Shown piece by piece: positions 18,294 through 38,074 of a stretch of 41,003 nt of DNA (the first letter of the stretch is position 1; every line of letters begins with the position of its first letter). Location of the stretch: positions 1-41,003 of the IMG/VR virus record IMGVR_UViG_3300049448_000412; one strand, written 5' to 3'. Source of the DNA: a virus. The notes beneath the pieces were generated by a model. The model made no database searches. It saw nothing but the letters and a program-made list of their open reading frames with translations, and was not told the origin of the DNA. The position numbers and the translations under genes were made by a program.

Positions 18294-18405
18294 CGCCGTA
18301 TGCCTCCATGATCCTGCGCTCTCCTGGAACATCGATCACACGTTCTTCGTCGTACACCAGCACTATCCTGTCCTGCTTCGGCACGACGATCGTATCCTCG
18401 CTCAC
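18277..18405 (-). CDS. Very small protein, 42 aa, coupled to the collagen/C1q fibre gene
   Basis: A GTG start at 18405 overlaps the TGA of the collagen-like gene as GTGA, and the frame runs 42 codons to TAG at 18277-18279. The product starts (M)[20 protein letters not shown] and includes [16 protein letters not shown], an orderly acidic β-like sequence unlike antisense filler. It contains the GGAGG used by the next gene, so it may serve in translational relay. Function unknown. Confidence 0.55.
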
Positions 18406-19703
18406 AGCAACGCTCCATAGAACGTCGTGACGAAATTAACCGCAGCCACCGTCGTCGTGGTGGCGGAAGGTGAGAAGCAGTAGCACTCGTAGTAGTCGGT
18501 ACCGTTGGCTTGATCGATCGTATCCACCTGAGTATACGCCGAATTCGACGTTGACTGCGCGCCATTTTGCACGATGCAGGCGCCGTTCTTGAATATCATG
18601 ACCTGCGGAAATACGTTGTTCCGCACTCCCGCTGAAAAATACAGCCCGGCCCCGAGATGCACGATACCGGCAGCCGGCGTCCAACGGAAATTGGTGGCGT
18701 CATACTTGTTATTGACGTCGAACACCTTGCTGGTGAACTTCATCTTGGTGTTGGTGCTGTCCGCGATACCGGTCTGGTTCGTCGCCATCTTGGCTCGAAA
18801 CGCATCTTTCACGGCAGGCTGCGAGCCCGTGGGGCCCGTGATGCCAGTCGATCCCGTCATACCGGGAGGACCGGTCATTCCGGTCGGGCCAGGCTGACCG
18901 AGTGAGCCAGTAGGGCCGGTGTTGCCGATCGGGCCCGTGACGCCGATGCCCGTAGGACCGACACCGAATGGACCGGTGTTGCCGGTCGGACCCGTCAAAC
19001 CGAGAGAACCCGTCGGGCCTGTCCTGCCGATTGGTCCGGTGTAGCCGGTCGGCCCATCGACGCCGTTGTAGCCATCGACCCCGCGGGGACCGGTGGCTCC
19101 GACGCCAGGACCCGTGGGCCCCGTGGCGCCGGTTGTCGACGCAAATCCCGCCGGTCCTGTCGCTCCGAGGCCCGTCGGCCCGGTGGCCCCTGTCGATCCC
19201 AACGCACCCGTCAGTCCGGTCGGTCCCGTCGAGCCCACGATGCCCTGCGGTCCCGCTATTCCCGCAATGCCTTGCGGTCCTGCCGGCCCCACCACACCCT
19301 GCGCCCCGGCCAGTCCCGACGCACCAGTGGGGCCAGTAAAGCTCGCCCCGGTGGGACCAGGTGGCCCATTGGCTCCCACGAATCCTACTGGACCCTGCGC
19401 TCCCGCCGGTCCGGTTGCACCCTGAAGAGCCGCCTGACCGGGAGCGCCCGTCGGACCGGTCTGTCCGATACCAGCCGGGCCCGTAGCCCCGGTCGCTGAT
19501 GCCGTACCGGGAGCGCCCGTCGGACCGATCGGGCCTACGTCGCCGAGAGCGCCTTGTGCCCCCGTAGCTCCTGCGGAGCCCGTAGGGCCGCCAGCAGGGC
19601 CGGTCGGGCCAGGACCACCCGCAGGACCGGACGGGCCAGCAGGCCCCGACACCACCACAACCGGGCGAGTCGCGATCGGAGCTGCGGGGGCGGGGTTGTT
19701 CAT
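18402..19703 (-). CDS. Collagen-like tail fibre with C1q-like head, 433 aa
   Basis: The ATG at 19703 is chosen over an in-frame TTG four codons upstream; it directly follows the stop of the previous gene. N-terminus: [18 protein letters not shown], the anchor shared with two other fibres. Residues ~20-295 are collagen-type Gly-x-Thr/Pro triplets. The C-terminal ~135 residues ([54 protein letters not shown]) have the layout of a C1q/TNF-like jelly-roll trimer head. The protein is expected to be a trimeric receptor-binding fibre. Domain calls are by pattern. Confidence 0.75.
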
Positions 19704-19704
19704 C

Positions 19705-20436
19705 TCAAAGCTCAAATATCGAGCAGTTCACATCATAGATGGTCGCGCCACCAGCAATCACAGCAACAATCGAAAGATCAAACCACCACGCCGTTCCGAG
19801 CGTAAGACCGCCCAGAATGGCATGCGCACTAAATCCTTGCCGACCTGCCGTCGTCGAAGCGACAAAATTCTGCGGCGCTCCCATTTGCGTGCCCAGCCCC
19901 GAAGTCGCGCCATTTACAGGAGCCGTTCCGGTTCCATAGCGACCCGTGATCGTGACACCATCCCCAGCCGCAGTCGCGTTCGCTACCATGCCGGTAAACA
20001 AAACAAATATCGCTCCCGACGAATTCGGAACGATATTGCAAGAGGAACCGAACCCCATCGCCTTTTCGGTCGTCGATACATTTCCGACCGGAGAATTGAA
20101 GAAGGTCGAAAGCTTGTTGGGCGATCCACCAGCACCGGAACCAGTCGCTCCAACCGGGCCTTGTGGACCCGTCGGTCCAACCACAGTCGACGGCGATCCG
20201 ACCCCTGGCGGCCCAGTCATGCCCGTCGGGCCAGTGAACGCGCCGGCACCAGGAGAACCCGTGCTCCCGGTCGGTCCGGTATGACCCGTGAGCCCCTGCG
20301 GACCCGTCGAGCCCGTCACTCCAGGACCAGCAACACCAGTAGGACCAGTCGGCCCACCGGATGGACCGGTATGACCCCCGATTACAACAACCGGCTTGGC
20401 CATTATGGGAGCGGGAACGCTGACGGTATTGCTCAT
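19705..20436 (-). CDS. Collagen-like short fibre, 243 aa
   Basis: N-terminus [20 protein letters not shown] then [11 protein letters not shown], homologous in layout to the anchor of the 373-aa and 433-aa fibres. About 85 residues of Gly-x-Thr/Pro repeats follow. The C-terminal ~140 residues form a different β-rich head ([38 protein letters not shown]). The gene begins 4 bp after the 1161-aa gene ends. Likely a trimeric accessory fibre with its own binding head; ligand unknown. Confidence 0.7.
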
Positions 20437-23400: not shown

Positions 23401-23926
23401 GCCGCGCGTGCGGGGCCTGACCGCCGGTGAAATTGCCGATCACGCCCAGACAGGTCCACGTCGTCGTTCCGTCAGCCTGGGTCGTCCCCGCAGTATCGTT
23501 CGGCCACGAGGGCTCGCTTGCCCCCAACGTGCCTGCAGTGCTGGCAATCCAATAACTCGCACCATTGTTACGCTTGATGATCGCGCCTAGCGTCGGCGTG
23601 CCGATCGCCTTGGCCTGCGCCCACGTCGGCGTATTAGTCACATCACCATTAACTGCAGAAGCACCAGTACATTCCTGCCATGTCGCGGTGCCGTCAGTTG
23701 TCCGAGCGCCACGGGTTAATACCCAAGTAGCATCGGTCGTGTTCGCCGTCGTTCCAGCAACAATGCAAATGAAACAACGCTCTGAACCAACCGCCGGTGC
23801 GGTGAACTGCCGACGAATAACTCCTGCGGCCACAGCCGTATTTTGCGGACGCACGGTCACGGCATAATAACCGGTCGTCGAGCCGTTACCAAAATTCGTG
23901 TACCAACTCGTGTCATAGAAGGCCAC
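20441..23926 (-). CDS. Giant tail fibre / receptor-binding protein, 1161 aa, with duplicated SPRY-containing modules
   Basis: The GTG at 23926 overlaps the preceding TAG (TAGTG). The N-terminal ~130 residues carry repeated D-G-T-x-T-W motifs, then a β-helix-like region to ~residue 430. After that come two tandem ~360-residue modules, each of the form GTETTETS...[33 protein letters not shown], then an inserted SPRY/lectin-like domain ([11 protein letters not shown] / [20 protein letters not shown]), then a common tail [20 protein letters not shown]. The gene lies between collagen fibre genes. Likely the main host-recognition fibre; no depolymerase active site is evident. Confidence 0.72.
20444..22626 (-). 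repeat. Tandem duplication inside the giant fibre gene (two ~1.07-kb units)
   Basis: The units run approximately 21557-22626 and 20444-21523 on the - strand. The best conserved DNA blocks are near their ends (encoding [20 protein letters not shown]) and starts (encoding [16 protein letters not shown] and [15 protein letters not shown]). The SPRY-like middle segments are much more diverged than the flanks. Boundaries are approximate, set by where the protein similarity stops. Confidence 0.7.
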
Positions 23927-25047
23927 TAGAAGAAACTCCCGGCATAGATAACCGTCACCATCGGTCCCGTCGGTCCTGTCGGTCCAGTGCCGCCAGCACC
24001 AGCAGGACCGGTCGCTCCAGTGTTTGTCGCTGCTCCCGGCGAACCGGTCGATCCAGTCGGACCCGTCGCTCCAGCTCCGGTTGGCCCCGTCGATCCAGCC
24101 ACTCCAGCACCGCCGGCCGATCCAGCAGCACCAGTTGAGCCCGTCGGTCCCGTCGCACCCACCGATCCGGCACCACCGGCGCTTCCCACTGCGCCGGTCG
24201 AACCCGTAGGTCCGGTCGATCCTGTGGCTCCAGCGCCCGTCGGACCCGTCGAACCCGCGCCACCCGTACCCGACCCGCCGCCCGTAGGTCCGATCGCACC
24301 CGTTGGCCCCGTAGTCCCAACACCAGTCGATCCCGTCGGCCCCGTCGATCCTATTCCACCCGCCAACCCTGATGCACCAGTCGGCCCAGTCGACCCTATT
24401 CCGGTGGGTCCAGTCGGTCCCGTCGAGCCTGCACCGCCAGTGCCCGATCCACCACCGCCAGCTCCCGTAGGGCCTGTAGGACCAACCGATCCAGCCGATC
24501 CCGCTATTCCCGCAATACCCTGCGGCCCCGCCGGGCCCACTGGCCCTTGCGCTCCCACCGAACCTGTCGGACCTGATGAACCAGCAGAGCCTGCCGTACC
24601 AGCCGCACCTGACGGCCCGGTCGCGCCCGTGTTGACTGCAGATCCCGGCGTCCCGGTCGGGCCGGTCTGACCCACACGCCCCGTGGGCCCCGTGTCACCC
24701 GACGCACCAGTCGCGGACGCCACGCCAGGGATGCCCGCAGGACCCGTGTAGCCCGTCGGCCCGAGCCCGCTGGCGCCCGTAGCGCCCGTAGGCCCAAGCG
24801 TCCCGATGCCCACCGGGCCCGTAACGCCGATCGATCCAGTTGGGCCCGTGATTGCCAACCCGGTCGGCCCGAACGGACCCGTCGGTCCAGTGAACGCGCC
24901 AAGTCCGGTAGGCCCGGTAGCCGCCGCTCCGGTAGGACCCGTAGGACCGGTGCCGCCAGTCGGACCGCCGGCCGGACCCGTATGCCCACCCACGACCACA
25001 ACGGGGCGTGTCGACACGATAGCCGGTTCATTTTTTATAACCGCCAC
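23926..25047 (-). CDS. Collagen-like protein, almost entirely Gly-x-y repeats, 373 aa
   Basis: A GTG start at 25047 with AGGTGA five bases upstream. N-terminus: [20 protein letters not shown], the shared anchor. Nearly all of the remaining ~345 residues are Gly-Pro-Thr/Gly-Ala-type triplets, and the protein ends abruptly with [10 protein letters not shown], so there is no folded head. It directly precedes the giant fibre gene and ends in a TAGTG overlap with it. It may form a rigid shaft to which the 1161-aa protein attaches; this is inference from adjacency. Confidence 0.72.
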
Positions 25048-25059
25048 CGTGTCACCTCG

Positions 25060-25434
25060 TCAGGGGTACGTAATTCCTTGTACGATTTTTACGGTTCCGT
25101 GCATGAACGGCCAACGGACCCCATAAGAATCAATCATCACGAGATCGTAGACGTAATTTCCAGGATCGAGACTAGCCTGGATGTCGGCAGCGGTTACGTT
25201 GAAGTGAATGACCCGCTGCACGACGTCGTCGGTGATTATGCGCCCGTTGGCGGTCGTGAGCGACAGCAACGGCGTCTTGTCGTAAGCGTTCAGTTGAACG
25301 TCCATCTCAAAACTGCAGCCGTTCAACGTCCACGTCAGATCATCCGGATCGTCGAACTGATAGGCGTCGCTCCAACTGCCGTTGTTGTCCACGACCATGG
25401 GCTCATACGCCGAAGTAACGCTATGCTTGTTCAT
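25060..25434 (-). CDS. Small β-sandwich virion protein, 124 aa
   Basis: The sequence MNKHSVTSAYEPMVVDNN followed by DDLTWTLNGCSFEMDVQ, SLTTANGRII and N-Y-V-Y-D-L-V-M-I-D-S-Y-G-V-R-W-P-F-M-H-G-T-V matches the general pattern of small phage β-sandwich proteins found next to fibre genes, ending VKIVQGITYP. It starts just after the 217-aa gene and precedes the collagen shaft gene by 13 bp. Probably an adaptor between the tail and fibres; context only. Confidence 0.6.
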   Translation of the reverse strand: MNKHSVTSAYEPMVVDNNGSWSDAYQFDDPDDLTWTLNGCSFEMDVQLNAYDKTPLLSLTTANGRIITDDVVQRVIHFNVTAADIQASLDPGNYVYDLVMIDSYGVRWPFMHGTVKIVQGITYP

Positions 25435-25438
25435 GGCG

Positions 25439-26092
25439 CTATCTCAACGGCGTCGGCGTGGGATTGACGTTGTACGTGCTCATGCCGCGCTTCTGACCCG
25501 TCACCCGGAACTGCTGCGGATAAGCCCACGCCTGCGAGCCGACGGTATTCGCCCGCATCATCGCCACCCGAGCACGCGCGATCTTATCGCGGAACCTGGT
25601 CAGATGGAATTGCGCCAGCGTAGGATTGGAATAGCTCTGCCCCGGCTGCAGCATCATGTTGCCGAGAATGCCGCTGAGGATCGCCTGACCGTGCGCCGGC
25701 AGCACCCAATCCGGAATATGCGGCGGCACGCATTCCAGCGGATCGGTCACGTTCTTGACGACGATGGCCGTCATCGGCTGCGTGTTCGTATAGGGATAAA
25801 GAAAATGCACCGTCCCAATCACCGGCATGACCGCCGACTGCGGCACGTTGTTCTGATCCAGTACACCGTACAGCCGCAATATCCGGCCAGTCGACGGATG
25901 CAGCGGATAGTCCAGCAACTCCGGTATCACCGTTATGCCGATGTTCTCCTGCCAGCAATTCGAGTCATTGAAAAATTCATCCAGCACATCGAACAGCTGC
26001 GCCTGCATGGCAGCCTGCGAAGCCCCCATCAACGCAGTGTCCGCCTGTCCGAGAATTTTAACCCAGTAGCCCGCAAGGTTGGATTTGCTCAT
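25439..26092 (-). CDS. Tail tubular A-like protein, 217 aa
   Basis: The start at 26092 (MSKSNLAGYWVKIL) gives an ATGA overlap with the 150-aa gene; the longer frame upstream is antisense-like filler. An early helical segment (LFDVLDEFFNDSNCWQENI) followed by β strands (PLHPSTGRILRLYGVLDQ, HFLYPY) and a C-terminal helix resembles podovirus tubular A/gatekeeper proteins that sit below the portal. Gene order (adaptor, this protein, fibres, nozzle) supports the call. Assignment is by style and order. Confidence 0.6.
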   Translation of the reverse strand: MSKSNLAGYWVKILGQADTALMGASQAAMQAQLFDVLDEFFNDSNCWQENIGITVIPELLDYPLHPSTGRILRLYGVLDQNNVPQSAVMPVIGTVHFLYPYTNTQPMTAIVVKNVTDPLECVPPHIPDWVLPAHGQAILSGILGNMMLQPGQSYSNPTLAQFHLTRFRDKIARARVAMMRANTVGSQAWAYPQQFRVTGQKRGMSTYNVNPTPTPLR

Positions 26093-26541
26093 TGTCCTTG
26101 TTGTCCTCTGCCTGGCCCTGAACCACCGGCCACGCCAGGCAGCGCACGGCCGACCAGTCCGGCGCTGAACAGCGCGAAATACGAAGTCGCCCGGCTGTCC
26201 TGGACGTCCTCTTGATCGCGTTCCAGCGCGTGCGCGCACAGCCCGTGCAGGATCGCCAACCGGAACTGCGGCTCCATCTCGACATAGGTGTCATCCACCT
26301 CAGTGAACGCCTGCGTCTGCCCGCGCGTCCGCATGTTAAAGATGAACAGATCAGTGCGCAGCCGCCGCGCTTCCAGCAGAGTGACATTTAGAGACGTCAG
26401 CAAGGAAGCGTCGTCATACCGATAAGGCGGAACGACATCCTGCAACAGCGTGCGCGCGTCGGCAACGTAATCAGCGACAGTGGCAAGCGTCGGCTGATCG
26501 CGGTCGCTGAAATTGCCGAAATAGGACGGAGACGTGGTCAT
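26089..26541 (-). CDS. Head-tail adaptor-like protein (DUF6682-like), 150 aa
   Basis: An α-helical bundle pattern: VADYVADARTLLQDVVPPYR, DDASLLTSLNVTLLEARRLR, then MEPQFRLAILHGLCAHALER and a flexible Gly-rich tail. This layout is typical of adaptor proteins that bind the portal ring. The start overlaps the stop of the GIY-YIG gene as ATGA, and its GGGAG ribosome site lies inside that gene within a small hairpin. It is followed by the tubular A-like gene. Fairly confident as an adaptor by sequence style and order. Confidence 0.65.
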   Translation of the reverse strand: MTTSPSYFGNFSDRDQPTLATVADYVADARTLLQDVVPPYRYDDASLLTSLNVTLLEARRLRTDLFIFNMRTRGQTQAFTEVDDTYVEMEPQFRLAILHGLCAHALERDQEDVQDSRATSYFALFSAGLVGRALPGVAGGSGPGRGQQGQ

Positions 26542-27374
26542 CGGGAGTAGCTCCCTTTAGGGCGCCCAGCCTGCTTCACAGAAGATCGTTCGAACCCACA
26601 ATACCGGCACCCTTGCCCCCGGTACATAAGCCTCTGAACAGTAGGTTTCCCAATATAATCATGCTTAGAACAATAGATGGTAACCCGACCATCAACGGCA
26701 CCAGGCTTACTTGGTGGTCCGATCTCCCTGCACTCCCAGCCTAATTCAGTTGTCTTAGCTTTAATCGCTTCCGGTGTGTTCTTACGACCGCGGCGATCCC
26801 ATATTTGATTCGTAAGTTCACTTTGTCGCTCACCAGCACCCGGTCTGCTCCAGCGAGCAATGCGAGCAGCTTCGCCGTTATCGATACCTTTCTGTTTTAG
26901 CGAAACTCCAGCTCGCTTCTCGGGCGTCCAAGCAGCTATCATGGCAGCAACACGAGCAGCCTTCTTCTCAGGGTTCGCCCAGTTCAACTCATTTTGCTCG
27001 ATAAGATGCTCGCGAAAATCCGGGTTGTTCGCAATCATACGTTTTAAATGACCGGAATGGGCCGCACGCTCTGCCTCCGTCATCCTCAAGCCCCTATTGG
27101 AATCCGCCCGCAAGCGCGAATTATACCGTGGCTTCAACTTGTCGATCCAAAACTGCTCCCGTTCCTCAAGCTGCTCTGGAAGACATTCTTCAAGGAGGCC
27201 GAATTCAAAGCCTTCACCACGATATTTCACAAATGCCTTTGACAGCCGACGCGAAGGGTGCCGATTGCTACGCAAATCACTCAAATGCTGGATACAGCGC
27301 TTCTCGGCTCGTATCGAGGAACCAACATACATTTTGCCGCTCTGGCTTTTGAGGAAGTAAATTCCACACGTCAT
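26538..27374 (-). CDS. GIY-YIG homing endonuclease, 278 aa
   Basis: Residues 4-18 contain the signature (GIYFLKSQSGKMYVG). Arg26 and His30 (RCIQH) and the metal-binding Glu73 in EREQFWIDKLKPRYN complete the catalytic domain. The middle (MTEAERAAHSGHLKRM, repeated basic helices) looks like modular DNA-binding segments. The C-terminus has a cysteine pair set (YCSKH; CRYCGFE) that may bind zinc. Its gene lies between the capsid and adaptor genes on the same strand and ends in an ATGA overlap with the adaptor. The start is preceded by GGGAGG with 7-nt spacing, buried in a hairpin. Family very clear; target unknown. Confidence 0.9.
   Translation of the reverse strand: MTCGIYFLKSQSGKMYVGSSIRAEKRCIQHLSDLRSNRHPSRRLSKAFVKYRGEGFEFGLLEECLPEQLEEREQFWIDKLKPRYNSRLRADSNRGLRMTEAERAAHSGHLKRMIANNPDFREHLIEQNELNWANPEKKAARVAAMIAAWTPEKRAGVSLKQKGIDNGEAARIARWSRPGAGERQSELTNQIWDRRGRKNTPEAIKAKTTELGWECREIGPPSKPGAVDGRVTIYCSKHDYIGKPTVQRLMYRGQGCRYCGFERSSVKQAGRPKGSYSR
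26543..26555 (-). promoter_or_regulatory. Small hairpin covering the adaptor gene's ribosome site
   Basis: GGGAG-CTA-CTCCC: a 5-bp perfect stem with a 3-nt loop, whose 5' arm is the only Shine-Dalgarno (GGGAG, 9 bases before the ATG at 26541). Translation of the upstream GIY-YIG gene through this point would open it. Confidence 0.45.
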
Positions 27375-27377
27375 ATT

Positions 27378-27416
27378 CTGGCCTCCCGTTTGTGTGCAAC
27401 AGCACTGGAAGGCCAG
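27378..27416 (-). promoter_or_regulatory. Hairpin sequestering the GIY-YIG gene's Shine-Dalgarno
   Basis: On the - strand CTGGCCTTCC (27416-27407) pairs with GGGAGGCCAG (27387-27378): 10 pairs with one G-T. The loop itself contains a 4-bp stem (GTGC/GCAC). The 3' arm contains the GGGAGG ribosome site, 7 bases before the ATG at 27374. Comparable RNA hairpins hold down translation of several phage homing endonucleases (for example I-TevI). Confidence 0.65.
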
Positions 27417-27477
27417 AAGATGTTACCTAATGTTCAAGCTGTCAAGATTGCTTCGCTAACAGCTTGATTATACCAGA

Positions 27478-29876
27478 CTATCCGCCAGAGATGACCTGAG
27501 CTTGGCACAAGGCCGTGCCGTCGATCACTTGATAGCCGTACACCTGCACGTTGTGTTTCACAACCAGTACACCCTGATTGATCGGTCGGCTCTTTATCCG
27601 ACCACCTGCAACTTTCGCTGCAGACCAGACTATATCTTCCTGCTTGCACAGGCTCCGCGCTCGTGGGCCTTTCATCCGGTCTGGATTACTCGACCTAGTC
27701 GTTGGACCTTCTCCCTGTTCCCAGGGAGCTTGGCTGCTGATTGCCCAATCCGAAGTGTTTTCAAACCGTCGCATCTACCGTTACCAGTTATGCTGTGGTC
27801 ACTTCGGCTCTCAGGGGTTCCCAGACAAATTCACGGAGTTTAACGAGAGCTAATTTTAACCCTCTGAGGATCTGGCCGAAGGTCAGCTCACTCCTCAACG
27901 TTTCCAATTTTGAAATCTGGCTTGCGAACGTAATCCCGTGCGCATGCCCAGCGAAGATCGGAAACTCGCCCGCTGCGAAGTTGGTTGAATCGCTCGTGTT
28001 GGTCGGCAGCAGGTTCGAGATATACAACGTGAATCGATCAATCATTCCGAGCCGGCCATTGCGCAGCATGGAGACCGGATCGCCCGACAGATAGGCCTGG
28101 CGCAGTTCCGACTGCTTGATCTGCCGCCCGGCCCACGCCGGCATCACCACCCAGCGGCCAATCTCCGGGATGTTCTGCTCGTCGAGGCACTCCCCCATGC
28201 GCAGAAGCAGATCGATCAGATTGGATTGACCGGCCGTCGCACCCTGCCCAACCACCGTGATCGGCGTGCCCTTGATCCCGAGGTTGAGATTGGCGTACTT
28301 CCCGGCCGTCGCGCCGCGGTTGGTCGCCGCGCATTGCCCGACGATGCCGTCGAGCACTTCCGTGTCGACCGCGATTTTGAGCTGCTGAGCTGCCCAACGA
28401 ACGTTTACGCGTTCGTTCCGACTATCGCTTCAACCACTGGAGCTATTATCTGCTTACGCCTGTATCCGCGCGTAGGCCGCTTGAGCCTATGATAGCGCTC
28501 AAGCTGCCAGCAATTCTTGCATAAGCCTTTAGCGTAAGGCTTACCGCCGCACTGACAGAGAACGCCTTCCGCGTGCCTATAGCGAGATTGCGGATCAGGC
28601 ACGTCGCGCACCAACACAAGTTCAGCAGACACATCCACAGTAGCCGCTAGGTCATTTAGTCTGTGCGGGTGGGTCTTCATGGCCTTGAGCGTATCCTCGA
28701 TCACCTCGCCATCGCGAAAATGTCCCATCTTCGCACAGCCAAGAATGAAGTACGCTTGTTCCCGTTTAACAGTCAGATGCTTCGCGATCGGATCAAAGAA
28801 CTTGCGAACCATTGCTGCGTCCGCTCGAAGTTCCCATCGCCAGCAATTACCTGTCGCACCTCGCTGTCGAATGGCTCCGCCAAATGCCTTTTGCACCAGG
28901 ACGAGCCCATCCTTTTCTAAACCATCGGAATCAATCGATAACTTGACGGTTGCTGTCCCACCATGCCGATTTGCATGAGCATAAACACAACCATCAGCAT
29001 CGAAATATCCCGCCAGCCAGTTGCGAGACGGATAAACAGGAATGCTGTCCGTTCCAACCCGTTCGGTGAACCCAAGTTCACGCAGGATACGATTGGCACG
29101 AACACGCTTGGCCACAAGATACGGCTTCAGCCGGCACAGCAGATCAACCGCTTTCTGTCCGGTAAACCGCAAGCGAGAACCATGCGTAATGGTCCCGCGA
29201 CGGCGCCCGGAACGGTTGTCCCGTGTTCCACCTGAAAACCGCTGAGTAAGGAGATCGATGACTCCGCTATTGGATTCCTTCTGATGGAAACCGAGTTCAA
29301 GCCGTTTTACAGGAACTGGGTTAGTGGTCAGCCCAACGAAGAGCGAACCATCTCCATCAAGAAAACCAGCAGCGTATTTGTCACTCAGGATCAACTTACT
29401 ATCCCTTCCCTCTGGTTGCCTTTTACAAGGTTCCCAGTTTTTTAGACCTAGTTTACCGACGACACAACGTCTTTATCGTCGCTCCATATAGACAGGACAT
29501 TCAGATCGCTCTGCACCTCCATCACGTCGTCGAGGATCAGAGAGAAGTAAAAGCCGTTGCCGATGTAGAGTTCGACTGAGCCTCCAGTTGGTCGATCAAG
29601 ACCGAGCAAACCGTCGGCCTGATACTTGCGGATCGTGATCGTAGGCTTTGTGCGAATCTTGACCCTGTCGCCTTGGTTGGCGATTTCGCCTTCGTAGTCT
29701 GTGTTTGATATGGCCGACAAAACGGTCGACGCATAAAATTTCTCAACGAGTTTAGCACTCCAGATCTCGGGAATAAATCCGGTCGATTGGAGTAGGTTTC
29801 CGGTAGACCCTACGGGGGTCAGGGGCGGGACTGAGCCTGACGTTGCGCCAGGAAAACCCGCACTCGGGATAGGCAT
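27478..29876 (-). CDS. Major capsid protein (HK97-fold, P22-like), interrupted by two group I introns
   Basis: Three exons on the - strand: 29876-29475 (134 codons, MPIPSAGFPG to SIWSDD), 28393-27859 (AAQQLKIAVDTEVLDGIVGQ to TFGQILRG), and 27569 (or 27560)-27478 (to QAQVISGG, TAG). Joined, they give one frame of about 342 (or 339) residues. Without splicing, exon 1 runs into a TAG after 8 intron codons and exon 2 ends 24 codons past its border. Exon joins reconstitute capsid-like text (SIWSDD-AAQQLKIAVDTE). The gene follows the scaffold gene, as expected. GGAG lies 8 bases before the ATG, within a hairpin. Assignment as coat protein is by order, length and residue style; splicing is inferred from the intron structure. 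Confidence 0.82.
27570..27858 (-). ncRNA. Group I intron 2 of the capsid gene, no ORF (~289 nt)
   Basis: Core elements on the - strand, in order: 5' exon GAGGGT pairs with intron GCTCTC (27850-27845) with a T-G pair at the splice site (P1); Q-like AATCAGCAGCCAAG (27742-27729); P6 hairpin CTCCCTG-GGAA-CAGGGAG (27728-27711); R-like AACGACTAGGTC (27703-27692); S element AAGATATAGTCTGG (27638-27625); P9 hairpin with GAAA loop (27623-27606); second hairpin GGTCGG/CCGACC (27603-27584). The 3' splice site is ambiguous: after G27570 (289 nt) or G27561 (298 nt); both keep the frame. The motifs resemble phage IA introns. Confidence 0.82.
28394..29474 (-). mobile_element. Group I intron 1 of the capsid gene, with homing endonuclease (~1081 nt)
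   Basis: P1: exon end GCGACGAT pairs with intron CGTCG-type guide GTCGTCG (29463-29457), with a T-G pair at the 5' splice site after T29475. P10: GTTGT (29468-29464) pairs with the 3' exon GCAGC. P3: CTAGGTC (29451-29445) with GACCTAG (28653-28647). P4: CTGG/CCAG near 29437-29412, with P5 CCTT-GTAA-AAGG inside. R: CACAGACTAAAT (28665-28654). S: AAGCGATAGTCGG (28430-28418). P9: AACGAACG/CGTTCGTT around 28398-28417. The last intron base is G28394. All core helices are accounted for; splicing itself is untested. Confidence 0.87.
28405..29394 (-). CDS. LAGLIDADG homing endonuclease encoded in intron 1, 329 aa
   Basis: Two LAGLIDADG motifs, YAAGFLDGDGSL (7-18) and WLAGYFDADGCV (126-137), mark a single-chain two-domain enzyme; the acidic residues Asp15 and Asp134 are in place. 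A zinc-ribbon-like tail (Cys280, 282, 292, 295 in LCQCGGKPYAKGLCKNCW) follows the second domain. The likely start is TTG at 29394, preceded by AAGGGA; the first motif follows at once, so little or nothing is missing. The 3' third of the ORF overlaps intron core elements R, P3' and S, and its TAA lies in the P9 loop. Expected to cut capsid genes lacking the intron and drive its spread. Confidence 0.9.
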   Translation of the reverse strand: MILSDKYAAGFLDGDGSLFVGLTTNPVPVKRLELGFHQKESNSGVIDLLTQRFSGGTRDNRSGRRRGTITHGSRLRFTGQKAVDLLCRLKPYLVAKRVRANRILRELGFTERVGTDSIPVYPSRNWLAGYFDADGCVYAHANRHGGTATVKLSIDSDGLEKDGLVLVQKAFGGAIRQRGATGNCWRWELRADAAMVRKFFDPIAKHLTVKREQAYFILGCAKMGHFRDGEVIEDTLKAMKTHPHRLNDLAATVDVSAELVLVRDVPDPQSRYRHAEGVLCQCGGKPYAKGLCKNCWQLERYHRLKRPTRGYRRKQIIAPVVEAIVGTNA

Positions 29877-29879
29877 GAG

Positions 29880-29905
29880 GGTAGCTCCATCGCTTGGGAG
29901 CTACC
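29880..29905 (-). promoter_or_regulatory. Hairpin sequestering the capsid gene's Shine-Dalgarno
   Basis: On the - strand GGTAGCTCC (29905-29897), an 8-nt loop, then GGAGCTACC (29888-29880): a perfect 9-bp stem. The 3' arm contains GGAG, 8 bases before the capsid ATG at 29876. No T-run follows, so it is not a classical terminator. Confidence 0.6.
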
Positions 29906-32003: not shown

Positions 32004-32312
32004 TCAATCGAACAACAGATCGAGAATGACCTCGTGTCTCGATCCGGCCGGCTGTACCGGCACGTTGATCGTGACAACCGGACTGACGAGGGACGCCGAA
32101 TCGGCTCCAGCGATCGCCACGACACCTGTCGGAGGCGGAATCTTGCTGCCAGGAGACGCCCCGCCGAACCAATTGACGATAGCGCCTCCCTGACCCGCAG
32201 GACTGTTGGTCCCGACCCAGTACGGGCTGATGTTCAAATCGAAAGTAAACGACGTCGACACCCCATCAGCTATGGCCCACACCATGACCCGGACAACTTT
32301 TTGAATCGCCAT
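32004..32312 (-). CDS. Small β-rich virion protein, 102 aa
   Basis: MAIQKVVRVMVWAIADGVST then FTFDLNISPYW and a C-terminal VVTINVPVQPAGSRHEVI: a compact β-sandwich pattern. Its ATG overlaps the stop of the collagen-like spike gene as TGATG, so the two are made together and may assemble together. Ends 43 bp before the 74-aa gene starts. Family not recognised. Confidence 0.6.
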   Translation of the reverse strand: MAIQKVVRVMVWAIADGVSTSFTFDLNISPYWVGTNSPAGQGGAIVNWFGGASPGSKIPPPTGVVAIAGADSASLVSPVVTINVPVQPAGSRHEVILDLLFD

Positions 32313-33361
32313 CAGCGGATTCTCCTGGCTGAAATGTATCCAGCCGCTCCCATGGTTCCGCCAGAGAAAATCCCCTGACCCACCAAATAGACATTGGTCG
32401 GCGCGTTAACGTTAACGCGGCAGATCCCGGTCTGCATGTACTGATCCACGCCCTTAGTGAACGGCAAGGCATACTGCGTCATGTTGCCGATGCCGGATGC
32501 GACCTGCGCCAGCGTCGGCAATGTCGCCGAGACAGTAGAAACCGATGCCGCCAACGCCGTGACGGTCGTCGCCGTCACCGGATCGAACACGATCGCTCCG
32601 GACACCGCCCAATCGCCCGGTGTCAGGGCCAAGGTAGCGATGTTCGCCGTCACCCCCGTCGTCAGGGCGACCTCGACGGTGGTGCTCGTCGCAATGACTT
32701 CTCCGATGTTGCCCGCCGCCGCATTGTCGGCCGCAATGGTGCCTTTCAAATTGAACGTGCCGGTCGGCCCGGTGGCGCCCGCAATTCCAGCCGCGCCGGT
32801 CGGTCCTTGCGGCCCGACGATCCCAACTGCGCCCGACGGCCCGGCCGCGCCCACGGGACCGGGTACGCCCTGCAAGCCGGTCGGCCCTGTTGGTCCGGCA
32901 TCTCCCTGCGGCCCCGTTCCCCCTGCTCCGGTTCCGGTTCCGGTTGGGCCGGTTGGGCCGGTCGGGCCCGCCGAGCCTGCTCCCCCGGTGCCGGCATCCG
33001 GCATGTCCAACACGACCTGGAAGGTCCTGTCGGCGTCCTGCTTGATCTGGGTCGTGAACGTGCCCGAGCGGAACCGCAGCCAGGAAATGCCATAGCCGGT
33101 ATTGGGCGGCATGGTGATGACGGACCCCGCCACCACGACCGGTATGGTCGCCGGATAGGTCGAGAAATCCCCGATATCGGTCGTAAGATGCAGATTATTG
33201 TAGGTCACACCGCCATCTGCAGAAACTTGAAACGTCAGCGGCGCTGCGTTCCAATCCGGCGGCATGACGATGCGCAGGATCCTGGTGCTGCCCGAGCAAT
33301 CGACCCCGCTCGACATCGTGTGTCCGGCGGGGATCGTCAGCGGCAGGGTCTTTAGCGACAT
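32312..33361 (-). CDS. Collagen-like spike with folded N- and C-domains, 349 aa
   Basis: Unlike the other three collagen-like proteins it begins with a ~120-residue β-rich domain (TLPLTIPAGHTMSSGVDC; LRIVMPPDWNAAPLTFQV) with no PVVVV anchor. Residues ~125-200 are Gly-Pro-Thr repeats. The C-terminal ~145 residues are β-rich (LTPGDWAVSGAIVFDP, VYLVGQGIFSGG) and probably form the trimeric tip. Located between the lysis genes and head genes, it may decorate the head rather than the tail. Role inferred. Confidence 0.7.
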   Translation of the reverse strand: MSLKTLPLTIPAGHTMSSGVDCSGSTRILRIVMPPDWNAAPLTFQVSADGGVTYNNLHLTTDIGDFSTYPATIPVVVAGSVITMPPNTGYGISWLRFRSGTFTTQIKQDADRTFQVVLDMPDAGTGGAGSAGPTGPTGPTGTGTGAGGTGPQGDAGPTGPTGLQGVPGPVGAAGPSGAVGIVGPQGPTGAAGIAGATGPTGTFNLKGTIAADNAAAGNIGEVIATSTTVEVALTTGVTANIATLALTPGDWAVSGAIVFDPVTATTVTALAASVSTVSATLPTLAQVASGIGNMTQYALPFTKGVDQYMQTGICRVNVNAPTNVYLVGQGIFSGGTMGAAGYISARRIR

Positions 33362-34526: not shown

Positions 34527-34688
34527 TCACTTCTTGCGACCCAGCTTGGCCTGGCCGCGCTTGTCCTCGGCCTTGTCCTGTGCGGAAGTCTCGTAGTTCT
34601 TGAGCGACATGCCCTTGCGCTTGGCGCCGCGCTTGTCCTCGGCCAGGTCAGCCTTGGACCCCTCGTAACCCTTGCGCTTTCCAGCCAT
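34527..34688 (-). CDS. Small charged two-repeat protein, 53 aa
   Basis: ATG at 34688 to TGA at 34527-34529. Two imperfect repeats of about 26 residues: KRKGYEGSKADLAEDKRGAK and S-L-K-N-Y-E-T-S-A-Q-D-K-A-E-D-K-R-G-Q-A-K. Very high Lys/Arg/Asp/Glu content; likely a nucleic-acid- or virion-associated peptide. The first 41 bp overlap the end of the upstream glycosyltransferase-like gene in another frame. Confidence 0.6.
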   Translation of the reverse strand: MAGKRKGYEGSKADLAEDKRGAKRKGMSLKNYETSAQDKAEDKRGQAKLGRKK

Positions 34689-35358
34689 CGGCGTGCTCCG
34701 TTGCCTGATAATTAGTAAACATACTGGAATTATGATCGGCTTTATACCACCGGATCGGCAAATCGGGGTACCGCTGCTCCACCCGCGCCAGGGTGTTCAC
34801 CTCCCAGCTCAGGTTGCCTGTCTCCCGCAGATGGCGCTTGCACTCGTCCCTCATCACGGCGGCGAGCGCGGCGGCGTGCTCGCGCGGCACGACCAGGAGG
34901 CCCCCGCAGAATCTCCACATCGGGTAGCGATCGTCGTATTGGTAGTTCCTCTCCCAGCAGCCCGGGATGGCGATGGCTTCTTCGGCCGCAGCGCGGGCCA
35001 TGAAATCCTCGATCACGCCGGCGGTCATTCCCGGCAGGTGGAAGATGCCGAGATCGATCCAGACGATGACGTCAGCGCCGGGAACCAGCTCGGCGGCGTC
35101 CGCGATGAGCTCGGACTTCTCCGCCTGTACGATGTGGTACGCGAGCGAGTTCTTGGCCGGGTTGTCGGCGGTCGAGTGGGTCACCGGCCCGTGCCGTTGC
35201 AGATGCCGGTAGAGCCAGCACGCCTCGAGCTCGGTGTCGAGGCGCAGGAGCGCGGTGATGTCGGCTGCGGCCAGTTGCGCGCCGAGCCTTTCGTAGTCCT
35301 GCGCCGGGCGGGGATGGCCGGGGATTGGGATAAAGCCGGTGACGGCCACCACGCTCAT
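34648..35358 (-). CDS. Glycosyltransferase-like protein (HtrL/YibB type), 236 aa
   Basis: The N-terminus VVAVTGFIPIPGHPRP is a Rossmann-type β strand and loop. Residues ~65-115 (NPAKNSLAYHIVQAEKSELI, then VIVWIDLGIFHLPG) match the layout of HtrL/YibB-like proteins: a substrate-contacting K-S-E-L helix and a W-I-D metal-type motif. The region FCGGLLVVPREHA and ETGNLSWEVNTLARVE resemble the C-terminal half of GT-A folds. Likely transfers a sugar to a phage or host surface component. Family assignment is moderate; substrate unknown. Confidence 0.6.
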   Translation of the reverse strand: MSVVAVTGFIPIPGHPRPAQDYERLGAQLAAADITALLRLDTELEACWLYRHLQRHGPVTHSTADNPAKNSLAYHIVQAEKSELIADAAELVPGADVIVWIDLGIFHLPGMTAGVIEDFMARAAAEEAIAIPGCWERNYQYDDRYPMWRFCGGLLVVPREHAAALAAVMRDECKRHLRETGNLSWEVNTLARVEQRYPDLPIRWYKADHNSSMFTNYQATEHADGWKAQGLRGVQG

Positions 35359-35374
35359 CGGAGCACACTGTATT

Positions 35375-35415
35375 CATCGGATATCGGAAAATAACAGCAC
35401 ATCACGCATCCGATG
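35375..35415. repeat. 8-bp inverted repeat in a divergent intergenic region
   Basis: CATCGGAT (35375-35382) and ATCCGATG (35408-35415) lie in the 183-bp gap (35359-35541) between the divergent glycosyltransferase-like (-) and HTH (+) genes. The same gap holds a consensus TTGACA (35482-35487) upstream of the HTH gene, without a good -10 box at standard spacing. The repeat is a candidate operator; nothing else is recognised in the gap. Confidence 0.4.
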
Positions 35416-35541
35416 TTGCCCTTCATCGCCGCTGTCTTCCCGTGTCAATGGCGGCAACCATCGTTTTGCCTCAGATAGGCGTTGACACCAGTATTTTCCG
35501 TATCATGCTGGAGATAGATCATCTTTTAGGGCGGTGAGCCT

Positions 35542-35745
35542 ATGAGCGATTCTGCGTCCAAACCGAAAAAGCGGCGGCGCACTGGCGCCGCTTTCTCCAT
35601 CCCCGGCGCGGCCGAGGAAATCGGCGTCTCGTACAAAACCATGCGCGACGCGATCGAGATGAATCAGGTGCGCACCATCAAGTTCGGCCGCATCACCCGC
35701 GTGCCGAAAGCCGAGGTCGCGCGTCTCAAAGAAATCTTTGCATAG
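35542..35745 (+). CDS. Helix-turn-helix protein, excisionase/MerR-like, 67 aa
   Basis: A basic N-terminus (SKPKKRRRTGA) precedes a short winged helix-turn-helix: SIPGAAEEIGVSYKTMRDAI, then QVRTIKFGRITRVPKAEVAR, the pattern of excisionase/helix-turn-helix-17 proteins. It is the only + strand regulatory gene within the late block and converges on the GT2 fusion gene with a 2-bp gap. It could be the recombination directionality factor or a regulator of the neighbouring sugar-transfer genes; both are inference. Confidence 0.65.
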   Translation: MSDSASKPKKRRRTGAAFSIPGAAEEIGVSYKTMRDAIEMNQVRTIKFGRITRVPKAEVARLKEIFA

Positions 35746-35747
35746 GA

Positions 35748-37715
35748 TCATCGCGGCTCCTCGATGAACCGCAGCACGTCATCTAGATCCATCCTCGCCA
35801 CCCACGCCTCGCAATCCCGCACGCCGTAGCTTGCCATCAGCTGCCGCCGCTCGGGAAAGTACGCCAGGCCGGCGGCGAATTCGATCTGCTTGTCATGGAA
35901 ATAGAACGGCATGGACATGCCGGTAACCGCTCCGTCAACGGCGTAGCGTACGAACCTATGTGCATAATAGCGGTTCGGCCGCCCTGGGATCGTGCGCGCC
36001 TCATGCACTAGCGATAAGTACACACCGTCAGCTTCTATAACCTGCGAGCCGCCGCTGATCTGGCTGGCATCGAAACCGGAATCACTTTCGAAAACCACAT
36101 TACCATCGTCGTCGACCAGGGTCCCCTGCCGGTAGACGAACCGCAACTCGTTGTTCTTCACCCAGGGCTGCCAGTTTTTCTCGTGGTAGCGCTTCTTGGG
36201 CAAAATCCGCATCCAAGGCTGGCCGCGCGCATTGAGCGGGACCAGGATTTGCTCGCACCAGCCTTCCGCGTTGAGCTCGCGCACGTTTGAGATCGTCCAC
36301 AGGGTGCCCTGCCATTCGAACAACCGGCTATCTTCCAGACCGCGTACCGGATGAAACTTCGGTTCCGGCCAATTCTCCGGTAATGGCAGCTCGTCGGCTG
36401 TGGCGGCATCCAGGTCGCGCACCAGATAATTACGCGTATGAATGAAATTGACGTTCCAGTCGGCACTCAGAGAGCTATCCTTCCCCCGGATCGCATAGAC
36501 CCCCTCCGTCGTGATCGTGTAGTTGACGGTACGTAAAACAAGGATAGGCCTTCCCTGATAGTTGATGACCGACGGGTTGGTGGCGGCCCAGCCGTCGTCC
36601 AGATCAAATTTCAACCATGTAGGCTTGAACGACGGCACATGCTCGGCCAACGGCCGCAGGTACCAGAACATATTGCCGCGGGCCTGCTCGCTGCCTTCGA
36701 GCGCCAGTTCGTTGCAGACCTGCGCGCCGCGGTCGCGGATTTTACCGCCTGCGTAATAGGCGCAGATCGCGAAATCCTCGCGTATGCCGGTGCTGGCGGC
36801 GTATTTGTTCACGAACAGCTGGTCGGCGTGCGGCTGCGGATCCATGCCGGCCTCGGAAAACAGTAGGCTAGAGTGGTTTTCTCCGCGCTCGCGGAAATAT
36901 CTGGCCAGGTCGTACAGCGTCTCGGCCCGGTGTGGCCGCAGCTCGTAGGCGCGCAGCATCTCCCAGACGAAGCCCGGTCTGTCGCCGGAATTCTCTAAAC
37001 AATGCGCGTAATGAAGCTGGGCGTTCCAGCGTTCTTCGGCGAAGCCACCGAGCCCGGCGCGGATCTTGTAGTGCTCCGCAGCCTTGGCCCAATCGCGCTT
37101 ATCAAAGTATGATTGCCCGAGATAGAAGTGAGCCCGCTGGATCAAGCCTTCGTTGGTCTCGGTCTTCAGCATCTCTTCGAGCAGATTGATATCCCGCTCG
37201 AACTTCTCCGGCCTGTTAGACCCATCTGCAAAGTCCTGGAACCAGATGCCGTCCAAGTTGCCCGCCGTTGGCACATCTAAAAATTCGTGCGTGGGGCACT
37301 TATAGTCACCGGTAGCATTGCGGCTCAGTATGCGCCGGTTCCAGTAGTTCAGTGTTCCGGCCACCTGCCGCACGTCGTAGGCAAGACCGCCGTTGAGCTG
37401 CCGCTTCCAGTCGGGATCGTCGACGACCAGGGCCATGTCGGCGTCCGAGAGCACCAAGTAGTCCCACGGCAGATGGCTCGCACGCGCAGCCAGCAGCGCA
37501 AGGTTACGGGCATCCGAGAAGTTGACGAATTCGGCTGCACCGAGCTCCAGCGGCTTGCTGGCTTTTTCGAACGCCGCGCGCACCATGGCGACGGTCGAGT
37601 CGGTCGAGCCGGTGTCGACCACAATGCCGTAGTCGACGTGCGGAATGATGCTGTCGAGGCAGCGCGATATAATCGCTGCCTCGTTACGCAGTATGCAGTT
37701 CCACCCCAGCTTCAC
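35748..37715 (-). CDS. GT2 glycosyltransferase fused to TPR-like and β-propeller-like domains, 655 aa
   Basis: The GTG at 37715 is preferred because it overlaps the previous stop as GTGA and begins right at the GT2 fold (KLGWNCILRNEAAIISRCL). Residues ~1-150: GT2 domain with VDTGSTDST and the D-x-D motif L-S-D-A-D-M. Residues ~175-330: helical repeats of TPR/Sel1 type (AHFYLGQSYFDKRDWAKAAE; TLYDLARYFRERGE). Residues ~370-650: a five-bladed-propeller-like region with GLEDSRLFEWQGTLW and VYLSLVHEAR, reminiscent of GH130. Proposed role: sugar addition to virion or host surface polymers. The fusion order is clear; the propeller assignment is tentative. Confidence 0.7.
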   Translation of the reverse strand: MKLGWNCILRNEAAIISRCLDSIIPHVDYGIVVDTGSTDSTVAMVRAAFEKASKPLELGAAEFVNFSDARNLALLAARASHLPWDYLVLSDADMALVVDDPDWKRQLNGGLAYDVRQVAGTLNYWNRRILSRNATGDYKCPTHEFLDVPTAGNLDGIWFQDFADGSNRPEKFERDINLLEEMLKTETNEGLIQRAHFYLGQSYFDKRDWAKAAEHYKIRAGLGGFAEERWNAQLHYAHCLENSGDRPGFVWEMLRAYELRPHRAETLYDLARYFRERGENHSSLLFSEAGMDPQPHADQLFVNKYAASTGIREDFAICAYYAGGKIRDRGAQVCNELALEGSEQARGNMFWYLRPLAEHVPSFKPTWLKFDLDDGWAATNPSVINYQGRPILVLRTVNYTITTEGVYAIRGKDSSLSADWNVNFIHTRNYLVRDLDAATADELPLPENWPEPKFHPVRGLEDSRLFEWQGTLWTISNVRELNAEGWCEQILVPLNARGQPWMRILPKKRYHEKNWQPWVKNNELRFVYRQGTLVDDDGNVVFESDSGFDASQISGGSQVIEADGVYLSLVHEARTIPGRPNRYYAHRFVRYAVDGAVTGMSMPFYFHDKQIEFAAGLAYFPERRQLMASYGVRDCEAWVARMDLDDVLRFIEEPR

Positions 37716-38074
37716 GCGCGCTTGCGATGCTTGACGATGGCGTCGATGATATCGCCCTTGTTCCAATGCTCGCTGACCTCGGCACCCTCGCTGGCAGCCA
37801 CGCTCAGCAGCTCCTCCTTGGTCATGTCGTTGAGCTGCGCCTTGGTCGACCTGGTTTCACCCACACCGAACATGCCGCCGGTGGCGCCGGTCGCGCCCTC
37901 GCCGCCGCCGGACGTGCCGGGCAGCTCGGTGACGGTCAAAACGTCGATCTCGTCGCCGGGAGTAGCGGTGGCGTTGGCCACGACCTGATGAACCGCATCC
38001 TCGCGGTGCAGCGCCTCGATGGTCTCGACGGTGGCGGCGTGGGTAACACGGGATTTAACCTCATAGGACGGCAT
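37712..38074 (-). CDS. Small protein with C-terminal SAP/Rho-N-like helix-extended domain, 120 aa
   Basis: GAGAGGAG lies 8 bases before the ATG. The N-terminal ~50 residues are β-like (YEVKSRVTHAATVETIEAL); a Gly/Thr-rich linker (GTSGGGEGATGATGG) follows. The C-terminal ~40 residues, LNDMTKEELLSVAASEGAEV and GDIIDAIVKHRK, are a helix-extended-helix of the SAP/HeH/Rho-N kind, often nucleic-acid-binding. It is followed by the GT2 gene through a GTGA overlap. Likely head-associated; unproven. Confidence 0.6.
   Translation of the reverse strand: MPSYEVKSRVTHAATVETIEALHREDAVHQVVANATATPGDEIDVLTVTELPGTSGGGEGATGATGGMFGVGETRSTKAQLNDMTKEELLSVAASEGAEVSEHWNKGDIIDAIVKHRKRA

Follow-up and report, generated by a model that had tools for sequence, protein, structure and literature searches.

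The window analyzed here (41,003 nucleotides, positions 1 to 41,003 of IMG/VR virus record IMGVR_UViG_3300049448_000412) carries, between positions 34648 and 37715 on the minus strand, two open reading frames that the first-pass annotation had read as sugar-transfer genes, and both were confirmed at those coordinates. Gene A (35748..37715, minus strand) encodes a 655-aa fusion protein from a GTG start codon at 37715, which overlaps the stop codon of the preceding gene by 4 nt, and gene B (34648..35358, minus strand) encodes a 236-aa protein. Between them lies a small open reading frame of 82 aa (35503..35751, minus strand) that is absent in many relatives and may not be a gene. A gene of 120 aa (37712..38074, minus strand) overlaps gene A at its start; in some other phages, a collagen-like open reading frame stands just upstream of the fusion instead. 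Genes A and B lie within the virion block and, as had been described, run alongside virion genes: those identified by family match share their strand. Promoter-like and terminator-like sites in the window did not exceed those in shuffled sequence.

Collagen-like fiber proteins are encoded on the same strand. The fiber gene 2.4 kb downstream of gene A (32312..33361, minus strand) matches PF01391 and tail fiber PHROGs and contains 25 Gly-X-Y triplets, 36% of which have Thr at position Y. Others are located at 23926..25047 (74 triplets, 43% Thr at Y), 19705..20436 (14 triplets, 57%), and 18402..19715 (74 triplets, 39%), all on the minus strand. The collagen repeats reported earlier are therefore present, but the fibers are only moderately Thr-rich, because their 36 to 57% Thr at Y compares with 31.6% across all bacteria and 48.3% in Gram-positives in a table of PMC8968730.

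Structural modeling and profile searches predict that gene A encodes a SunS/GmaR-like GT2 domain (GT-A fold, approximately residues 1 to 165) followed by TPR helices (residues 166 to 345) and fused to a GH130/GT108-like five-bladed propeller (residues 357 to 655), in agreement with the three-part architecture first proposed. The GT2 domain (37221..37715, minus strand) scores 27.6 bits against PF00535 (Pfam cutoff, 23.3), and residues 1 to 327 match PHROG 13126 ("beta-1,4-glycosyltransferase"). In structure comparison of the model, residues 1 to 274 superpose on SunS (Z = 23.1, 21% identity), a fold common to the SunS/ThuS peptide S-glycosyltransferases, which act on Cys of a bacteriocin. Profile search likewise recovered SunS (E = 1.3e-11) and the flagellin GlcNAc transferase GmaR (E = 1e-10), while the score against the NCBIfam SunS model TIGR04195 (22.5 bits) fell below its curated cutoff of 350. 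Catalytic-type residues are conserved, with D34-T-G-S-x-D39, D91-A-D93, R127-R128, and H143-E144 invariant in an 11-sequence alignment. The TPR assignment draws on a sub-threshold Pfam TPR_2 match, a helical stretch in the model, and designed TPR proteins recovered by profile search; residues 275 to 356 drew hardly any VIA-align or Foldseek rows, and the model itself (built on 11 sequences, mean pLDDT 75.6) is poor at residues 291 to 351.

For residues ~370 to 650, the first-pass annotation had suggested a structure search, and this returned a GH130 match over residues 357 to 655 (Z = 23.4 to 5ay9), within a GH130/GT108 range of Z = 17 to 23 that includes Leishmania MPT-2 (Z = 17.7). In the propeller domain (residues 355 to 655; 35751..36653, minus strand), N-P, G-x-E-D (D462), and E-K-N-W-x-P are invariant in two alignments, and the GxED motif aligns with that of GH130 phosphorylase 9fj8 and Uhgb_MS in HMMER alignments whose scores were not significant. 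A five-bladed propeller with GxED is also what characterizes GH130/GT108 mannoside phosphorylases and synthases, and gene A is predicted to have both; the Pfam family itself, PF04041 (GH130), misses gene A at its gathering score and matches two free-standing relatives below threshold.

Gene B is predicted to adopt a GT-A fold (model pLDDT 74, pTM 0.78). Its best Foldseek match is 2p72 (E = 2e-5), the capsid glycosyltransferase of PBCV-1, a virus of an alga, with which it has 15% identity; structure matches by VIA include 8xkd (Z = 10.8), 2p73 (Z = 10.7), and LARGE1 (Z = 10.0). Sequence searches of Pfam, PHROG, NCBIfam, and PDB yielded nothing useful for gene B, tblastn against sequenced phages gave no match, and the lead came from fold comparison and hhalign. 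The HtrL/YibB-like label given earlier survives as a distant resemblance only: hhalign to E. coli K-12 HtrL gave a probability of 82.7 with 13 sequences (E = 9.5e-6, 106 columns) and 49.6 with 23 sequences (E = 1.7e-4, 64 columns), compared to 0.5 and 0.2 for the controls waaF and rfaD, and the two proteins share a W-I-D-[FYL]-G block followed by P-x-[VM]-T. In contrast, PF09612 (HtrL_YibB) had no match in the window or in 10 relatives, although one such test was also blank in its control genomes. We know of no function for HtrL.

Linkage to collagen-like genes is the strongest new evidence. Eighty bacterial loci were kept from 342 relatives and their neighbors surveyed for collagen-like open reading frames, which occur within 3 kb in 59 loci and not in the other 21, where some contigs are short. 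The association holds for 37 of 42 fusions (median Thr at Y, 95%) and 22 of 38 proteins with GT2-TPR alone (median, 0.60); a single genus supplied most of the bacterial fusions, and with near-copies removed at 80% identity, 9/13 fusions and 20/36 GT2-TPR-only genes are near collagen. In three genomes with 12, 13, and 24 GT2 matches, picked for whole contigs, the homologue is the sole GT2 match within 3 kb of the collagen genes listed, beyond which others may exist. Among 71 sampled genomes of one genus, 13 of the 15 that encode the propeller had collagen matches at E <= 1e-8 (leaving two without), against 14 of the 56 that lack it (Fisher p = 2e-5 with no correction for kinship; 4 of the 15 were known beforehand). 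Sampling genomes across the family told little, with the propeller in 1/61 (the centre of the sample itself) and collagen in 13/61. In rhizobia, proteins of the gene A type are extended into large proteins that also carry extra transferase and other domains.

The fusion had been called unusual for a phage, which now holds only in part. A search of a phage collection with gene A matched 8 records, none covering 80% of the protein; yet 85 distinct contigs among the viral ones fetched encode GT2 and propeller in a single frame, several of them near-identical, a few cut, some perhaps not phages, and, being distinguished by name in a hand-made list, in some cases possibly the same virus. Gene B follows the fusion in 57/68 viral contigs, and a propeller precedes gene B in 73/73, which makes the two genes a conserved pair in relatives; L082 and L088 carry a broken gene A, the former still counted in the 85 and the 68. 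Collagen lies in the retrieved flank of 39/85 viral fusion loci (Thr at Y, median 0.49, range 0.17 to 0.91), and in seven (L039, L057, L069, L079, L081, L085, and L132) a same-strand collagen-like open reading frame ends no more than 50 bp upstream of the frame of the fusion. In cyanophage DSL-LC02 the propeller is encoded separately, 112 bp from a divergently oriented collagen-like gene, beside tail fiber genes. Among 20 dereplicated viral GT2-TPR genes with no propeller in frame, 15 had no collagen in the retrieved locus, some loci being cut by contig ends.

Portal relatives provide a further comparison, in 33 records chosen for length among the fetched loci. Collagen repeats occur in 20/20 phage records with gene A (including L125, with only part of it, L088, where it is broken, and L074) and in 0/13 portal relatives without it (15.6 to 61.1 kb, five of at least 46 kb, so that genes may have been missed in the short ones). 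Those 13 also lack gene B, while a related head gene is present. Because the portal tree, from which L074, L088, and L125 are absent for want of a portal in the retrieved locus, places the contrast at one transition, we read it as a single independent event and not as many. L074, a 55.6-kb record labeled as viral, has 10 full or partial matches and a collagen frame of 6174 aa, and it may be bacterial.

Given that bacterial relatives of the fusion usually lie beside collagen-like genes, the phage probably sugar-coats its own collagen-like fibers, and we consider it likely that genes A and B constitute a soluble O-glycosylation module for this purpose. The closest precedent is SgtA of Clostridioides difficile, described in passages of PMC7157674 as a GT-A domain followed by TPRs, encoded directly upstream of the collagen-like bclA3, and adding beta-O-GlcNAc to Thr of BclA3 collagen-region peptides in vitro. 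By that description, gene A is predicted to have the same GT-A/GT2-then-TPR architecture. Its nearest collagen-like gene is on the same strand at a distance of 2.4 kb in the window, and the distance is <=50 bp in several relatives. SgtA differs in that its target is a spore-surface protein and that those passages mention no propeller or gene B partner. The earlier suggestion of sugar transfer onto Thr of collagen-like fibers is thus partly supported, by comparative linkage and by SgtA/BclA3.

Our inferences on the substrate, the sugars, the sequence of steps, and the purpose are as follows. The TPR helices of gene A would keep a Gly-X-Thr chain, nascent or unfolded, in place while the GT2 domain attaches the first sugar to the hydroxyl groups of Thr, in the way that SgtA modifies BclA3. 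The fused propeller and gene B could then extend it with more sugars. By analogy, the first sugar might be GlcNAc and the propeller might add beta-linked mannose, both identities being guesses. The resulting coat could stiffen or shield the fibers or tune adsorption. Among the best-ranked results from open-license literature, we found no report of a GT2-TPR/GH130-like fusion or of glycosylated phage collagen fibers. Mimivirus, a virus of amoebae, is described as modifying its own collagen by hydroxylation and glycosylation (cited in PMC8968730), but the route runs through hydroxylysine and the bifunctional enzyme involved is unrelated.

An alternative hypothesis is that the enzymes alter host LPS or capsule, either to block superinfection or to keep released phages off debris. 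E. coli htrL adjoins LPS-core genes, and beta-1,4-galactosyltransferases are among the folds close to gene B. However, lipid-carrier serotype-converting transferases have membrane helices, and hydropathy predicted none in gene A or in gene B, the latter close to the usual threshold (1.55); nor was a flippase or lipid-carrier transferase found among the family-matched proteins of the window, where many proteins matched nothing. The collagen-like open reading frames near 59/80 bacterial relatives and the resemblance of the GT2-TPR half to peptide-modifying enzymes further argue against a surface polysaccharide target. Phage genome papers do read their glycosyltransferases in this way, or as DNA protection (PMC7029224, PMC10202952), but for this locus we regard it as unlikely.

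Slightly less likely again is that genes A and B put sugars on some other component of the virion, for example the major capsid protein. The nearest solved fold to gene B by Foldseek belongs to a virus that glycosylates its own capsid protein, and glycans are reported on the capsids of mycobacteriophages Che8 and Rita (PMC11256854, citing Freeman et al. 2023), a case of sugars on phage particles, but on capsid proteins. A fold match says nothing on substrate, and the 13 collagen-free portal relatives, though representing one evolutionary split, have a related head gene without either enzyme. We give least credence to the possibility that the pair acts on host surface proteins, whether collagen-like or not, or that gene A is a regulator like GmaR, described as an anti-repressor in PMC9638930. 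The nearest cellular fusions, which come mainly from Alphaproteobacteria whose collagen-like proteins are very rich in Thr, would fit a host protein target, yet genes A and B sit inside the virion block and, in some relatives, directly beside collagen-like genes of the phage.

Returning to glycosylation of the phage's own fibers, we speculate, with somewhat less than even confidence, that GT2-TPR plus GH130-like propeller proteins are a bacterial and phage class dedicated to decorating Gly-X-Thr triple helices, extended in rhizobia and taken over by tailed phages for glycosylated collagen fibers, with alleles swapped among nearly identical genomes as a means of varying the glycan coat. Glycosylation of phage fibers by the phage's own enzymes would give host recognition a further, variable layer and would provide a source of enzymes for glycosylating bacterial collagen. 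From the collagen linkage, a role can also be proposed for a group of GT2-TPR proteins, as well as for the extremely Thr-rich collagen-like proteins of rhizobia.

Comparison with relatives gave dN/dS of roughly 0.2 to 0.4 for genes A and B, which indicates purifying selection on both; diversifying selection on the variable pair was rejected, as dN/dS was below 1. What the sequences show is allele replacement: in L035, four downstream genes have dS of 0, yet gene A has dS of 0.56 and gene B 0.37, and in L011, gene A is 99% identical and gene B 59%. Such replacement is not special to this pair, since lysis genes have likewise been replaced in L022, L024, and L028.

The 41-kb viral record comes from a phage whose minus strand encodes an SU10-type portal (PF23899, 30.9 bits against a cut-off of 30), lysozyme and the major head protein, together with four tail fibre proteins of collagen-like type. 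Gene A (35748-37715, minus strand), which encodes the GT2-TPR-propeller protein, has a GTG start codon overlapping the preceding gene's stop. Residues 1-165 form the GT2 domain, in which motifs DTGSxD, DAD and HE are invariant in the alignment, and TPR helices come next. Profile searches matched SunS (E = 1.3e-11), GmaR (1e-10) and 7msk, called ThuS (1.8e-9). In an AlphaFold2 model (mean pLDDT 75.6, poor at residues 291-351), residues 1-274 superposed on SunS (Z 23.1, 2.7 Å over 261 residues) and residues 357-655 on GH130 phosphorylase 5ay9 (Z 23.4, 3.1 Å over 265 residues). The propeller retains the GxED motif of GH130 enzymes and, because it reached no family cut-off, is named here only as GH130/GT108-like. 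According to passages of PMC8950772, GH130 and GT108 share a five-bladed propeller, and beta-mannosides are substrates for enzymes of both.

Gene B (34648-35358, minus strand) follows gene A with a small ORF between them. Its fold is GT-A, matching the PBCV-1 capsid glycosyltransferase (Foldseek, E = 2e-5) and beta-1,4-galactosyltransferase (VIA Z 10.8); an hhalign match to Escherichia coli HtrL is weak but specific. GT2 and propeller occupy a single frame (a fusion) in 85 distinct viral contigs; in contigs L088 and L082 the fusion is interrupted, by decay or assembly error. Among the 68 with at least 1.5 kb of downstream sequence, gene B lies downstream in 57, with two copies in 8, and its domain starts no more than 60 bp from the stop of gene A in 43 of 57 relatives. 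A propeller frame precedes gene B in each of the 73 fetched contigs that have this gene with 0.9 kb or more of sequence before it. Since gene B is absent from its expected place in 11 of the 68, it is accessory. Purifying selection acts on both genes, and near-identical phages show allele replacement. A diverged second copy of gene B lies downstream in L067, L068, L072, L079, L128-L130 and L132; in L072, the same frame as this copy continues into a weak methyltransferase-like match.

When 33 phage records were searched whole, all 20 with gene A contained collagen repeats and 15 contained gene B; the 13 portal relatives without gene A had neither (0/13 for each), although short records could hide genes. 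This contrast is a single split on the portal tree, and the co-occurrence therefore counts as one event. Gene position is more telling than the presence contrast. Several divergent relatives have, upstream of the fusion, a collagen-like ORF whose end is no more than 50 bp from the fusion's open frame, and in cyanophage DSL-LC02 (L041) a free-standing propeller gene and an adjoining collagen-like gene sit among genes for tail fibres. At 5962-9672 of L041, that propeller gene is followed by an FkbM methyltransferase and radical SAM gene and a DUF6445 gene, with collagen-like and tail fibre genes adjoining, possibly another fibre-modifying cluster.

Cellular relatives were sought in a pattern-seeded scan of 84,980 bacteria and archaea, at one genome per species. 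Among the best 80 of 342 relatives, 59 loci had a collagen-like ORF (at least 10 Gly-X-Y triplets) within 3 kb. Judged by record titles, the linked loci include Alpha-, Beta- and Gammaproteobacteria, Actinobacteria, Acidobacteria, Cyanobacteria, Verrucomicrobia, Polyangiaceae and Planctomycetes. Within these 80, fusion genes had such a neighbour in 37 of 42 cases (median 136 triplets, Thr at 95% of Y positions) and GT2-TPR genes alone in 22 of 38 (Thr at 60% of Y). The bacterial fusions are mostly from Mesorhizobium, and dereplication at 80% identity left 9/13 and 20/36, respectively. As a control, 49 GT2 matches were taken from three genomes picked for whole contigs; 3 lay within 3 kb of a collagen gene among the collagen matches listed, and those 3 were the homologues themselves. 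Across 71 genomes of a one-genus sample, collagen (E ≤ 1e-8) occurred in 13 of 15 with the propeller versus 14 of 56 without. A quick GT2-TPR tree placed most phage fusions together in a single group (SH-aLRT 86, not starred), next to another made up mainly of fusions from Alphaproteobacteria. Some Mesorhizobium/Bradyrhizobium loci have very long frames in which GT2-TPR-propeller is joined to a sugar-transferase domain (L136) or to GT25, Anp1, GDSL (acylhydrolase) and a second GT2 (L138); in L146 a neighbouring second frame carries a methyltransferase domain. These rhizobial loci lie near collagen-like genes of up to 591 triplets, the largest such neighbour found, with Y mostly more than 90% Thr. 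The viral-labelled L074 (55.6 kb) has a collagen frame of 6174 aa and matches gene A 10 times, in full or in part; it is perhaps a bacterial collagen-glycosylation island.

By analogy with SgtA, gene A and its partner probably glycosylate the phage collagen fibres. Like gene A, SgtA combines a GT-A/GT2 domain with TPR; passages of PMC7157674 describe its gene as adjoining collagen-like bclA3 and the enzyme as transferring beta-O-GlcNAc in vitro to Thr in collagen-region peptides. Three observations count against this reading. Thr occupies 36-57% of Y positions in the window's collagens, which is moderate and near bacterial collagens generally (31.6% in all bacteria and 48.3% in Gram-positives, in part of PMC8968730); 15 of 20 dereplicated viral GT2-TPR genes without a propeller lack collagen in the available locus sequence; and collagen-like genes are present in 14 of the 56 genomes of the one-genus sample that have no propeller. 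On the SgtA analogy, gene A would add the first sugar to Thr residues in the fibre chains ahead of folding, and the propeller and gene B would lengthen the glycan. We speculate that the link formed by the propeller is Man-GlcNAc, because GH130 enzymes act on such links (portions of PMC8950772). The sugar may serve stiffness, shielding or adsorption.

Passages of the literature already describe collagen glycosylation by a GT-TPR enzyme (PMC7157674), glycosylated phage particles (cited in PMC11256854) and glycosylated mimivirus collagen (cited in PMC8968730). Among top-ranked results in the open-licence literature, we found no paper that reports either a module for glycosylating phage collagen fibres or the GT2-TPR-propeller fusion.

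Elsewhere in the window, the head gene seems to carry two insertions. Within the major head protein region (25400-29900), where the last part of the gene was not located, minus-strand head protein pieces at 29448-29876 and 27788-28357 flank an HNH endonuclease ORF (28405-29394). The same region holds a minus-strand group I intron at 27606-27923 (RF00028, 57.8 bits) and a homing endonuclease-like ORF at 26538-27374.
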